From positions 1 through 23,397 of IMG/VR virus record IMGVR_UViG_3300032213_002275: a stretch of 23,397 bases of DNA. One strand, written 5' to 3'. The notes below the pieces were generated by a model. It had not been told where the DNA came from and searched no databases. It saw nothing but the letters and a program-made list of their open reading frames with translations. The translations under genes and the position numbers were made by a program. Origin of the DNA: a virus. How positions within the stretch are numbered: position 1 is the stretch's first letter; every line of letters starts with the position of its first letter. Of this stretch, positions 2,422 to 7,207 are shown piece after piece.

Positions 2422-2673
2422 TTAGAATGGAATGTCATCATCAAGATCAGCCGGCGCCGGGCGTGGCGCAACTGGCGCGCTGGCGCCGTCTTTCGGTTTG
2501 GCCGTCAGACTGAAAAACTTGCCCGATCCATCCTTGCGTTCCTTGATCCAGCCTGATAGCCAATACTCGCGGCCTTCGATATTGATCGAACCGGAAAAGT
2601 CCGGATGCGTGTCTTGAGTTTTCCGGTCATTGCGCCCGAAAATGCCCTTGTTCGTGTTATCGTATCCGCTCAT
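2422..2673 (-). CDS. Small OB-like protein with SSB-type acidic tip
   Basis: An 83-residue protein placed directly after the RecT-like gene with an ATGA overlap (2673-2670). Residues about 22-62 (HPDFSGSINIEGREYWLSGW, then SGKFFSLTAKPKDG) look like alternating beta-strands, similar to short phage proteins of DUF736 or SSB-like type. A Pro/Ala-rich linker leads to the final six residues DDDIPF (78-83), the tip by which bacterial SSB recruits partner enzymes. It may bind single-stranded DNA or mimic the SSB tail. It is too short for a classical SSB. Confidence 0.7.
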   Translation of the reverse strand: MSGYDNTNKGIFGRNDRKTQDTHPDFSGSINIEGREYWLSGWIKERKDGSGKFFSLTAKPKDGASAPVAPRPAPADLDDDIPF

Positions 2674-3516: not shown

Positions 3517-4065
3517 TCATTTTTCCTTTGAGGTTATCACTAAAGAGGGCGGCGCTTGCACCAGCACGGCGCCTTTGATTTTGTCGCCTTTCGCCAAGCG
3601 CGCCTTGATATAAGCCTTGTCGGGTTCGCGCTTGGTGCGGAAACAGTCATCGGGCAGCGCCTTTTCATCGGTGATTTCCGCCGACTTGGCGCCGTTGCCG
3701 CGCAGCGTGGCGCGGTGGTGCCTGCTTTCCGTTACCGCCGCGCCAGGGTCGCCACATTCAGCCAGGCCAGCGCGCAATGCTTCACGGGCTTGTGCCGCGC
3801 CGCGCGTCAATTCCGCCTGGATGCGCGTCCAGTATGTGACCGCGCGCTTGGCTTCTGTATCGGCATCTTCCAATGCGACAATGGCGTCTAGCGTTCCGGT
3901 AAAGGTGGCGTCGAAGCTATTGGCCTGCGCTGCTTTGCTAGTCGCCACCTTAGCGGCTATAAGCGTTAAACGCATCGGATGCGCGTCGTAATCCGGCATT
4001 GTCGCCGGCACTTGCACGGCGCGCACGGCTTCCCGCAAGGTGGCGGCGATTTCCTCGGCGGTCAT
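3517..4065 (-). CDS. Gp157-like phage protein
   Basis: A 182-residue protein from ATG 4065, which overlaps the upstream TGA (4064-4062). A longer in-frame start at 4167 would run deep into that gene and is rejected. The N-terminal region is helical (TAEEIAATLREAVRAV, later AKRAVTYWTRIQAEL, a coiled-coil-like stretch). The C-terminus, REPDKAYIKARLAKGDKIKG followed by AVLVQAPPSLVI, resembles the C-terminal strand block of the siphovirus Gp157 family, whose members commonly sit beside annealing proteins. The biochemical role of Gp157 proteins is not established here. Homology is moderate and judged by eye. Confidence 0.5.
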   Translation of the reverse strand: MTAEEIAATLREAVRAVQVPATMPDYDAHPMRLTLIAAKVATSKAAQANSFDATFTGTLDAIVALEDADTEAKRAVTYWTRIQAELTRGAAQAREALRAGLAECGDPGAAVTESRHHRATLRGNGAKSAEITDEKALPDDCFRTKREPDKAYIKARLAKGDKIKGAVLVQAPPSLVITSKEK

Positions 4066-4310
4066 TGTCCATCTCCAAAAAGTGAAAGCTGCCCCGGTTC
4101 GGGGATCAGCACTTGCGCGCCCGCCGCTGTCAGCAGCGCCGCCAATGCGGAAGCTTCCGCGCGGCATTGCGCGGCGTCATCGCGGGATTGCGCGGCGCGG
4201 TCAGGATCGGCGCGGTCATGGCGATCCGCCGATGCTTCAAGGTGGCGGGCGTTCAACACGCATCGCGCGTGAAGCCCGGCAACGGTGGCAATCTGAAAGG
4301 CGTTCATCAT
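4062..4310 (-). CDS. Small protein ending in a beta-clamp binding motif
   Basis: An 82-residue protein of otherwise unknown family. The body is helical and charged (HLEASADRHDRADPDRAA, then AQCRAEASALAALLTAAG). The last residues, PGQLSLFGDGQ, contain QLSLF (74-78), an exact match to the consensus QL(S/D)LF by which polymerases, MutS and other proteins dock on the bacterial DnaN sliding clamp. Both ends overlap neighbours by ATGA, and a second ATG lies directly after the first. Context (annealing protein, SSB-tip protein) suggests a replication-linked role, for example bringing phage factors to, or blocking, the host clamp. Confidence 0.65.
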   Translation of the reverse strand: MMNAFQIATVAGLHARCVLNARHLEASADRHDRADPDRAAQSRDDAAQCRAEASALAALLTAAGAQVLIPEPGQLSLFGDGQ

Positions 4311-4471
4311 GCCACCCCCAGCAGCACAAGCCAGACCGCCACGACCCAGGCGATGCCTTGGAATAGCGCCTCAAAGGCGCCAGAGACAACCGTGCCGCCA
4401 AAGGCGAGGCAGGCAAGAAAGATCAGGATTAGGGGGCAAAGGACGATGATCCATGCGGGTTTTTCGGTCAT
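4307..4471 (-). CDS. Small two-helix membrane protein
   Basis: A 54-residue ORF from ATG 4471 to TGA 4309-4307, overlapping both neighbouring genes by ATGA. After MTEKPAW come two hydrophobic segments, about 8-24 (IIVLCPLILIFLACLAF) and about 38-53 (QGIAWVVAVWLVLLGV), joined by a short GGTVVSGAFEALF turn. It should be an inner-membrane hairpin. It is in the early operon, not the lysis cassette, so a holin role is less likely than an exclusion or membrane-anchor role, but this is a guess. Confidence 0.65.
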   Translation of the reverse strand: MTEKPAWIIVLCPLILIFLACLAFGGTVVSGAFEALFQGIAWVVAVWLVLLGVA

Positions 4472-5238
4472 GGTGTATCCCTCCAACGCTTTATGGCTTT
4501 GGCAAACATTGCCAGAATGTCTTGCGTTTCATCGCCAAGAGCCGTCCCGGCGCGCGTGGCCTTCCAATGCTTGCGGCATTCTTCCAGCGTAAAAAACCGG
4601 CAACCGGCTTTAATGTAAAAACCATCCTCGCAATGCCAAAGAAAAAACTCGTAGCCGTCGGAGCGCATGGCGCGGCGCAGGATACCGATGGCGGTTTTGT
4701 CGTTGGCAAGGCGGACGCCGACAAGGTTGGCCCCGTCAAGGCTGGCCCCGTCAAGGTTGGCCCTGGCAAAGCTGGCCCTGGCAAGGCGAGCCCTGGCAAG
4801 GTTGGCCCTGGCAAGGCGAGCCCTGGCAAGGATGGCCCCGTCAAGGTTGGCCCTGGCAAGGTTGGCGCCGTCAAGGCGGGCGCCGTCAAGGCGGGCGCCG
4901 ACAAGGCTGGCCCCGTCAAGGTTGGCGCCGACAAGGATGGCCCCGTCAAGGCGGGCGCCGACAAGGTTGGCCCCGACAAGGTTGGCCCCGTCAAGGCTGG
5001 CCCCGTCAAGGTTGGCGCCGACAAGGATGGCCCCGTCAAGGTTGGCCCTGGCAAGGTTGGCGCCGTCAAGGTTGGCCCTGGCAAGGTTGGCGCCGTCAAG
5101 GCGGGCGCCGTCAAGGCGGGCGCCGACAAGGCGGGCGCCGACAAGGCTGGCCCCGTCAAGGTTGGCTCGCTTGCCGCCTCCATTGCGCAACCATTTAAGA
5201 TGATCCGCCAACACGGCGGCGATTTGTTCCTGTGTCAT
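4468..5238 (-). CDS. Pentapeptide-repeat protein
   Basis: A 256-residue protein from ATG 5238, which shares its A with the upstream TAA (TAATG). Residues 25-179 are 31 consecutive pentapeptides of type A(N/R/S/I)L(D/V/A)(G/R), enough for almost eight turns of the right-handed quadrilateral beta-helix typical of this family. The N-terminal 24 residues are helical (TQEQIAAVLADHLKWL). The last 77 residues form a separate domain with GYEFFLWHCEDGFYIKAG and CRFFTLEECRKHW, a module that recurs in phage pentapeptide proteins. Some family members (Qnr, MfpA) mimic DNA and bind gyrase. Whether this one does is unknown; its surface is rich in Asp but also Arg. Confidence 0.85.
   Translation of the reverse strand: MTQEQIAAVLADHLKWLRNGGGKRANLDGASLVGARLVGARLDGARLDGANLARANLDGANLARANLDGAILVGANLDGASLDGANLVGANLVGARLDGAILVGANLDGASLVGARLDGARLDGANLARANLDGAILARARLARANLARARLARASFARANLDGASLDGANLVGVRLANDKTAIGILRRAMRSDGYEFFLWHCEDGFYIKAGCRFFTLEECRKHWKATRAGTALGDETQDILAMFAKAIKRWRDTP
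4702..5166. repeat. 15-bp tandem repeat array encoding the pentapeptides
   Basis: About 31 near-identical 15-bp units of the type GTTGGCCCCGTCAAG (plus-strand reading, with GCGGGC, GGCGCC and CTGGCAAG variants) run without interruption. The unit is five codons, so copy changes keep the frame. The array leaves several other frames open, which explains long spurious ORFs on both strands. Confidence 0.9.
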
Positions 5239-5606
5239 TACGCGGCACCCCGGCGCATGTTCCAATTATCAATTGAGCGATAAAATCCGCCGTTCAGGCT
5301 GTCATCTTCCGCGCGGCGCTCGGCTTCACCCGTGACGGTGGCAGCGCTTTCAACCAGCACGTTAATCGCGTGGTCAATATCCTCAGACGCGCGCTGGCTT
5401 GGCGCGGCGGCGCTGATTTCCAGCAATTGCGCCACCATGCGTTCAATTTGCAACATCGCGGTCCAAGCCGTGGTCGCGGCATCGTGCCAGTTGCCGTTTC
5501 TGTCATCTGGGCACTTTTCCAGACGGGTGCGGTAGCCCGCCAGGCTGACCAGCGCTTCATGCTTGGCTGGCGCTTCGGGCGGTTGTGTGGGGAGTAACTT
5601 GAGCAT
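5238..5606 (-). CDS. First gene of the leftward operon, hypothetical
   Basis: A 122-residue protein. I chose ATG 5606 because the leftward promoter (-35 at 5669-5664, -10 at 5646-5641) would start the mRNA near 5634; the longer frame to 5669 would begin inside the -35 box. AAAGG lies upstream of this ATG. The protein has a Pro-rich head (MLKLLPTQPPEAPAK), a middle segment (TAWTAMLQIERMVAQLLE), and a helical, acidic second half (ASEDIDHAINVLVESAAT). Its TAA overlaps the start of the pentapeptide gene. The family is not recognised. Confidence 0.68.
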   Translation of the reverse strand: MLKLLPTQPPEAPAKHEALVSLAGYRTRLEKCPDDRNGNWHDAATTAWTAMLQIERMVAQLLEISAAAPSQRASEDIDHAINVLVESAATVTGEAERRAEDDSLNGGFYRSIDNWNMRRGAA

Positions 5607-5740: not shown

Positions 5741-5941
5741 ATGACAGTCTCAGACCTTATCGAGCAGGCAGGTGGCACGCGAAAACTGGCGGAAACGCTA
5801 GGCTGCCGTCCTAATGCCGTTTGCAACTGGCGCTATCAAGGCGTCCCATATAAGCATCACGCCCGGCTGCGCGTCATGCTGCGCCGCCGTGTGGAACGCC
5901 TGGCGCTGGCCGAGGCCCTGGAATGGAGGCCGAGTAAATGA
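5741..5941 (+). CDS. Cro/YdaS-like helix-turn-helix repressor
   Basis: A 66-residue protein. Its N-terminal two thirds match the YdaS/Cro helix-turn-helix pattern: DLIEQAGGTRKLAETLGCRP as helices 1-2, then NAVCNWRYQGVP as the recognition helix region and turn. Proteins of this type bind operators as dimers and control the early divergent promoters of temperate phages. It lies just right of the inverted repeat at 5664-5709. No Shine-Dalgarno sequence precedes the ATG, consistent with a leaderless start. Its TGA overlaps the next ATG. No divergent CI-like gene is visible, so whether the phage is temperate is open. Confidence 0.75.
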   Translation: MTVSDLIEQAGGTRKLAETLGCRPNAVCNWRYQGVPYKHHARLRVMLRRRVERLALAEALEWRPSK

Positions 5942-6660
5942 GCGGCCCTTCACCTTGGACAGAAGAGCGCGACGCGCAGCTCACCGCCAATTGGGCGGCA
6001 GGCTTTACGACGTCCGAGATCGGCGAGCGCATGGGCATCAGCAAGAACAGCGTCATAGGCCGCGCGCATCGTTTGATGCTGGCGCCGCGTGGTTCGCCGA
6101 TTAACCTAAAAGCGTCGCAGTCTTGGACTGAGGCGGATGATGCGACGTTGCGCGCCATTTACGGCGGGTTTCTCACTGCTGCCGAAATTGGCGCCCGCAT
6201 GGGCCGCAGCGTCGGGCAAATTTCCTACCGCGCGAAGTTTCTTGGCCTTGTAGCCGGGCGTCGCGCGAAACAGACAAGGCCGCGCGCCCCCTCATCCGCG
6301 CGGCCTTTGGCGGGTCGGGATGCCTCTGTCCCTGGGCAAGCCCGGCCCGTCACCACATGCCGGCCACGTGCCGCGCAACCGGGCGCAGCGGCAGCTACTG
6401 CGTATGGTGGTCTTCCTCCCCTAAACTTGCCCGAGGTTGCAGCAATGCAGCCTCGGGTCTTTTCAGGGACGGAATGCTGCCATCCGATGGGCGACCGCAC
6501 TTGCGATGAGCCCGTCCAAGCCAATGCGCGCGGGCTGAAATCGTCTTATTGCCCCGAGCATTTTGCCTTGATTTACGCGGCGCCGCCCGCCAAGAGCGCA
6601 AATAATCCGCCGCCTGCGACTTGGCTGAAAAATCGCGGCATGGTTTGGGCGCGCGGGTGA
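5938..6660 (+). CDS. GcrA-family transcription regulator with two N-terminal DNA-binding domains
   Basis: A 240-residue protein. Residues 6-50 (SPWTEERDAQLTANWAAGFT, then SEIGERMGISKNSVIGRAHR) closely follow the GcrA DNA-binding domain. Residues 62-107 (SWTEADDATLRAIYGG, then TAAEIGARMGRSVGQISYRA) look like a second, diverged copy. After a Pro/Ala/Arg-rich linker, residues 173-212 carry the GcrA-type C-terminal block GTECCHPMGDRTCDEP and YCPEHFALIY. In Caulobacter, GcrA binds sigma70-RNA polymerase and activates promoters with methylated GANTC sites. A phage copy could redirect host polymerase or methylation-dependent genes. The start overlaps the upstream stop. An intrinsic-terminator-like hairpin lies in the linker coding region. 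Confidence 0.75.
   Translation: MSGPSPWTEERDAQLTANWAAGFTTSEIGERMGISKNSVIGRAHRLMLAPRGSPINLKASQSWTEADDATLRAIYGGFLTAAEIGARMGRSVGQISYRAKFLGLVAGRRAKQTRPRAPSSARPLAGRDASVPGQARPVTTCRPRAAQPGAAAATAYGGLPPLNLPEVAAMQPRVFSGTECCHPMGDRTCDEPVQANARGLKSSYCPEHFALIYAAPPAKSANNPPPATWLKNRGMVWARG
6430..6463 (+). terminator. Terminator-like hairpin inside the GcrA-like gene
   Basis: CCCGAGGTTGCA (6430-6441) pairs with TGCAGCCTCGGG (6446-6457), a 12-bp stem with one G-U pair and a GCAA tetraloop, followed by TCTTTT. It has the form of a Rho-independent terminator on the + strand but lies in coding sequence, at about residues 165-174 of the GcrA-like protein. Confidence 0.5.
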
Positions 6661-6691: not shown

Positions 6692-7207
6692 ATGCCGTTA
6701 GACACGGCCTATGCGGAGTTTCTGGCGGGCAAGCGGCCTGCCGCCAATGCAGTCGGCCTTGATAAAGTGCCTGACTTGCACCGCGACCTTATGCCGCACC
6801 AGCGCGATTGCGTGGCGTTTGGATTGCGCCAAGGGCGCTTTGGCTTGTTCCTTGATACGGGCCTTGGCAAGACATTCGCGCAGCTTGAATGGGCATCGCC
6901 TGTATGGATGACCGTTGACCAGACAAATGTTTTAAATGTGAATGCCGCAAAAGATCAAGCGGATGAAAAGCATCTCTGCCCGTTGCAGCTTGATGTTATC
7001 GAGCGTTCTTTGATTATGTGGAGCAATACCGGCGATGTGGTGCTGTCGCCATTTATGGGGATTGGCAGCGAGGGCTTTTGCGCCATGAAGCTAAAGCGCA
7101 AGTTTCTCGGTGTTGAATTGAAAGACAGCTATTTTCGCCAAGCCTGCCGCAACATAGACGCGGCAGAGAAATCGGCAGAGAGCCTTTTTGATTACGATGC
7201 CGCGTGA
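6692..7207 (+). pseudogene. Internally deleted helicase-DNA methyltransferase fusion
   Basis: An intact 171-codon frame with GGAGG before its ATG. Residues 1-68 match the start of a large phage helicase-methylase protein, including LMPHQRDCVAFGL (Q-motif-like) and Walker A DTGLGKT (55-61). Residue 69 onward is the end of a beta-class N6/N4 DNA methyltransferase: DEKHLCPLQLDVIER (91-105), SAM-binding motif I SPFMGIGSEG (119-128), and FLGVELKDSYFRQACRNI (138-155). The rest of the helicase and the methylase N-terminal half with motif IV (DPPY type) are absent, so neither activity is expected. The join near 6893-6900 is in frame. Helicase motif order and beta-class motif order are established knowledge; the deletion is inference. 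Confidence 0.75.

Follow-up and report, generated by a model that had tools for sequence, protein, structure and literature searches.

A small phage protein with an invariant C-terminal sliding-clamp motif accompanies exchangeable annealase cassettes

The consensus clamp-binding motif of bacteria is QL[S/D]LF (PMC12309361). It reads QLSLF at the C terminus of B. subtilis PolC, with a KD of 3.8 uM for the species' own DnaN and a submicromolar one for E. coli DnaN (PMC12309361), and when a transposase was re-engineered to carry this pentapeptide, it bound three clamps, those of E. coli, Leptospirillum, and the alphaproteobacterium Acidiphilium (PMC4549789). The clamp pocket is also where SocB of Caulobacter crescentus binds, by way of a clamp-binding motif, to block replication elongation (PMC9690074), and it is the target of the pneumococcal protein RipA (PMC12795458). 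Among phage proteins, Twort gp168 and G1 gp240 have been listed as binding DnaN and stopping replication of the host (PMC3594737). On the side of recombination, RecB carries a clamp motif of its own (PMC13254535), and Sak4 is stimulated by its SSB via the SSB C-terminal tail (PMC5928155).

The protein described here, which we call the clamp-tail protein, resembles each of these systems in part. PolC and the IS-family transposases likewise have the consensus QLxLF near the C terminus, PolC with the identical QLSLF (PMC12309361, PMC4549789), but they are large enzymes, whereas the clamp-tail protein is a stand-alone hairpin of 81 to 82 residues without an enzymatic domain. SocB and RipA, likened to it by their descriptions, aim at the protein-binding pocket of DnaN, as is proposed for the clamp-tail protein; they are chromosomal toxins of toxin-antitoxin systems, however, and the clamp-tail gene belongs to a phage recombination operon; its product has no known toxicity, profile searches returned no homologue, and no antitoxin-like neighbor was identified beside it. 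The staphylococcal phage proteins gp168 and gp240 also target DnaN and are compared with it by description only. The clamp-tail gene is embedded in an annealing cassette of the Redbeta/RecT and Sak4-SSB kind. In the published account of the Sak4 cassette (PMC5928155) the word "clamp" is absent, whereas the phages examined here have a distinct small protein for the clamp peptide. Our literature search found no description of a clamp binder from a phage annealase operon.

The gene lies in a 23,397-base virus contig, which is partial and is referred to as a whole as the window (Table 1). It is read from the minus strand, the plus-strand reading of the interval not being open, and its 82-aa ORF encodes MMNAFQIATVAGLHARCVLNARHLEASADRHDRADPDRAAQSRDDAAQCRAEASALAALLTAAGAQVLIPEPGQLSLFGDGQ, ending in QLSLFGDGQ. 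A preliminary description made from this DNA had placed QLSLF at residues 74 to 78, four residues before the C terminus, as an exact match to the consensus; the translation agrees, and the pentapeptide fits the QL[S/D]LF and QxxLF patterns of clamp-binding proteins. The true start is probably the second ATG, at 4307, because codon 1 varies among relatives, where it is often a nonstart codon (GTA, ATA) or a different one, while Met2 is invariant. This start would give a product of 81 aa with the motif at residues 73 to 77.

Table 1. Locations of the clamp-tail gene, its neighbors, and compared features (window positions unless another contig, designated L, is named)
Feature	Location	Strand	Evidence
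Clamp-tail protein gene	4062..4310	minus	ORF and translation, relatives, AF2 model
Clamp-binding pentapeptide codons, QLSLF (residues 74-78), CAG CTT TCA CTT TTT	4077..4091	minus	translation, 20-sequence comparison
GDGQ codons 3' of motif, holding GGAG	4065..4076	minus	sequence; varies to GDAQ, GDSQ, GDGTQ
Sipho_Gp157/Mu Gam-like end-protection protein, 182 aa	3517..4065	minus	Pfam PF05565 E 2e-6 (just under gathering), phrog_253 E 3e-9
RecT-type ssDNA annealing protein, 281 aa	2670..3515	minus	Pfam RecT, phrog_561 E 8e-51
Common annealase C-terminal domain	2670-2930; L010:7516-7776; also L004, L005, L007, L012, L014, L035	minus (window)	
Short SSB-like protein, 83 aa, SSB-type tail DDDIPF	2422..2673	minus	phrog_7364 E 1e-17, sequence
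Full-length SSB after recombinase	L010:7776-8195; L004:2645-3100		
Hydrophobic 59-aa protein, probably membrane-spanning, directly upstream	4307..4486	minus	ORF; adjoins gene in most relatives
Pentapeptide-repeat protein, 265 aa, upstream	4468..5265	minus	Pfam PF00805 E 6e-41, synteny
GcrA-like cell-cycle regulator	5938-6660	plus	Pfam GcrA E 4e-16
171-aa ORF, helicase/ATPase-like start and N6/N4 DNA methylase C-terminal part	6692-7207	plus	Pfam E 7e-12 (methylase part)
Unrelated 72-aa ORF in the clamp-tail slot	L159:3786-4001		no clamp motif

An AF2 model built from the family alignment consists of a two-helix hairpin (helices 4 to 31 and 36 to 62, pLDDT about 95) followed by a tail, residues 63 to 82, that has no secondary structure and whose pLDDT falls to 40 to 60 at the end. 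QLSLF is thereby predicted to sit in an exposed, flexible terminal segment, accessible as in known clamp-binding proteins. Short linear motifs usually sit in this way, on an exposed tail carried by a compact anchor. The fold itself is uninformative: a search of the PDB gave only generic ferritin helices (E above 0.5), and one of BFVD gave a single true homologue, an unnamed protein of an uncultured phage (A0A6J5NJF8, 81% identical), with no informative fold match to the hairpin. The helical, charged body had been described as belonging to no known family, and the searches bear this out. The best Pfam and PHROG profile matches were at chance level (E 0.07 to 0.5), none reaching a curated cutoff, and NCBIfam and PDB sequences yielded no match. 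A protein search of bacterial genomes, plasmids, and GenBank phages found zero relatives.

Relatives were recovered by scans of the viral collection, on 20 viral contigs. QLSLF is present in 20/20, even as pairwise identity between bodies drops to 36%, and every tail reads QLSLFGD followed by GQ, AQ, SQ, or GTQ; the relatives all come from one loose phage group, and the conservation is to that extent phylogenetically narrow. Two of the scans used tail patterns, and an additional one was run against search bias with a pattern taken from helix 2 only; it returned 18 relatives, all on motif-bearing contigs, and zero without the motif, although its pattern was derived from motif-bearing members and a very diverged motif-less branch could escape it. 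Conservation of the motif on diverged bodies was a check proposed in the preliminary description, and homologues without the motif were among the counterevidence it named; the body-only scan, like the others, gave none. A further scan of viral contigs with QLSLFGDG, seeking the same tail on unrelated bodies, recovered the clamp-tail family and some unrelated proteins, namely, one recurring protein with an internal QFSLFGDG and one unrelated ORF (on L046) with a QLSLFGDGD tail. The GenBank phages PBR31 and MW202867, of the same terminase group, have no strict C-terminal clamp motif in a comparable gene.

Chance is ruled out as the source of the motif by its conservation and by the expected number of copies, which is 8e-5 for QLSLF in the shuffled clamp-tail protein and 0.018 for QL[SD]LF over all 140 mechanically called window ORFs of at least 60 aa. 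A window-wide check found the relaxed clamp motif in no other plausible gene. We compared codons across 20 sequences (the window and 19 relatives, one duplicate being excluded). Synonymous divergence is similar in the two parts of the gene (pS of 0.50 in the body versus 0.48 in the motif), but nonsynonymous divergence is not (pN of 0.224 versus 0.028), and the motif value stems solely from two-step leucine codon paths, all motif residues being identical. The resulting pN/pS is 0.058 for the motif versus 0.445 for the body, so that the motif is conserved beyond its surroundings; 5/5 motif columns are invariant, against 18/65 body columns at a lowest pairwise body identity of 36%. Within the motif, two codons are used for Q, three for the first L, four for S, and three for the second L, with F always TTT. 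Because the Q, L, S, and L codons vary synonymously without any replacement, the comparison indicates strong selection at the protein level, for the peptide rather than for the DNA sequence. The accessible C-terminal clamp peptide suggested beforehand thus gains in substance, by which the earlier reading of a factor acting on host DnaN is supported in part, and we regard the clamp-tail protein as a new, unnamed family that, by motif, modeled exposure, and selection, belongs among the clamp-binding proteins, with binding predicted.

The genomic setting is that of a recombination operon, as the preliminary description had it, with the Sipho_Gp157/Mu Gam-like, RecT, and SSB-like genes directly downstream on the same strand. 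The Gp157/Gam start overlaps the clamp-tail stop (ATGA) and the stop of the 59-aa gene overlaps the clamp-tail start; therefore, the operon is tightly coupled in translation. The first genes of a divergent operon encode a small HTH protein and a GcrA-like protein, and the operon extends to the gene of a Prim-Pol/AAA_25 RepA-like replication protein; a replicative DNA polymerase was not seen in the partial contig. The gene of the GcrA-like protein varies strongly among relatives (31 to 63%). Together with a nearest annealase match in Komagataeibacter phages, the GcrA-like protein suggests an alphaproteobacterial host. The nearest terminases are those of an environmental Manatee Spring phage and Xanthomonas phage PBR31.

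Across the relatives, the recombinase next to the clamp-tail gene is exchanged. RecT, Sak4, or exonuclease VIII genes adjoin it in 19/20 relatives: the RecT type of the window in seven of them as well as in the window, a Sak4-like core (phrog_124 E 2e-11) in another seven, a RecT that has diverged in three, and exonuclease VIII (phrog_412 E 4e-82) on two contigs with the same protein. L017 is the exception: its clamp-tail gene remains, but neither a recombinase nor a Gp157 gene was found next to it, and a phage integrase lies nearby. In several relatives the downstream gene changes, and the clamp-tail C terminus remains the same. The RecT-type and Sak4-type annealases have in common a C-terminal domain of ~83 aa that is about 60 to 90% identical, although their cores are unrelated, which on sequence comparison is a swap of the catalytic core with retention of the C-terminal domain; this domain may be a module that binds SSB or another partner. 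The recombinase is followed by one of two kinds of gene, for a full-length SSB or for the short SSB-like protein of 83 aa. The latter terminates in DDDIPF, the two full-length forms examined in DDEIPF and SDEIPF. In a distant locus, L159, a diverged Gp157/RecT-like pair occurs with an unrelated 72-aa ORF in the clamp-tail slot. Recombination would therefore be possible without the clamp-tail gene, which is then an accessory, and from these gene arrangements we consider that it usually accompanies annealing cassettes but can be dispensed with.

Since QLSLF is a proven clamp ligand, both in PolC and in the engineered transposase, docking on the host clamp is the most economical reading, and we think it likely, from the sequence and from these analogies, that the clamp-tail protein docks on host DnaN. 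What the docking would serve is less certain. We give about an even chance to its being a small clamp-docking accessory, an adaptor, that serves the phage's cassette for recombination by single-strand annealing. In this reading the hairpin of two helices would be the phage-specific part, which probably self-associates or holds an inferred phage partner, and QLSLF, on the exposed tail, would enter the pocket in which the host sliding clamp binds its protein partners. The adaptor could thereby bring or keep RecT or Sak4, SSB, and the Gam-like protein where clamps are loaded on DNA, at the forks and lagging-strand gaps that are the sites of annealase action; alternatively, it could direct the host's clamp and polymerase to intermediates of recombination. 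The narrower proposal, that a dedicated phage adaptor links an exchangeable annealase (RecT or Sak4, with the common C-terminal domain) to the host clamp, is one we put forward only tentatively. If this narrower proposal is true, it would offer a physical explanation of phage annealase action at the replication fork. The motif is already known; a specific, testable lead comes from where it is found, in phage annealase cassettes that are exchangeable. An invariant clamp peptide on a phage hairpin in annealase operons makes a link between annealase and clamp directly testable.

We favor the adaptor over an inhibitor because the gene keeps constant company with a recombination cassette whose core is exchanged, which argues for a working accessory role. 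L017, with the gene but no recombinase beside it, fits a dedicated recombination adaptor less well and fits better with a possible, if doubtful, competitor for the clamp pocket that occupies DnaN and blocks host clamp users, so that host replication is shut off or repair is silenced. In one variant, mismatch repair, RecBCD-type processing, or translesion polymerases would be silenced and annealing between diverged DNAs would not be undone; given RecB's own clamp motif, the target could be host recombination and repair. The strong consensus form of the motif and the precedents of SocB, RipA, gp168, and gp240 also speak for competition. However, the phage has a Prim-Pol/AAA RepA-like protein but no visible polymerase and probably needs the host clamp itself, the gene lies inside a recombination operon with no antitoxin-like partner identified, and a single peptide of micromolar affinity would be a weak inhibitor unless oligomerized. 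Were the clamp-tail protein an inhibitor after all, it would be a compact natural DnaN ligand.

It is unlikely that the tail is kept for another cause, either binding to a phage protein or a DNA constraint from the ribosome-binding site or start of the next gene, with the clamp match a coincidence. The GDG codons just 3' of the motif hold a GGAG that is likely the ribosome-binding site for the downstream start, and conservation covers most of the last 12 residues, beyond the five of the motif. Conservation of GDGQ is therefore weaker evidence, having this second possible cause. Retention of QLSLF itself merely for that site is ruled out by its synonymous codon variation with zero replacement, the caveat on GDGQ remaining. 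GDGQ, moreover, does vary, the tail is constant in several relatives whose downstream gene differs, and the chance expectation per protein is very low. Docking for phage DNA replication, with the host clamp (and, through it, Pol III) recruited to the phage replication start or to Prim-Pol/RepA, is quite improbable: the window encodes Prim-Pol and AAA_25 with no polymerase seen and the clamp-tail gene persists when the recombinase core changes, but RepA lies in the divergent operon, not adjoining the clamp-tail gene, and nothing points to a partner there.

Two further genes of the window deserve mention. The pentapeptide-repeat gene is on the other, downstream side of the clamp-tail gene in three relatives (L015, L016, and L019) and absent in some, and several relative contigs stop in or near it, possibly at assembly breaks. 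Some pentapeptide-repeat proteins are DNA mimics that bind gyrase. On the opposite strand, the 171-aa ORF opens like a helicase/ATPase (GLRQGRFGLFLDTGLGKTFAQLEWA) and goes on as the C-terminal portion of an N6/N4 DNA methylase, as if two genes had been joined by fusion or by an internal deletion.
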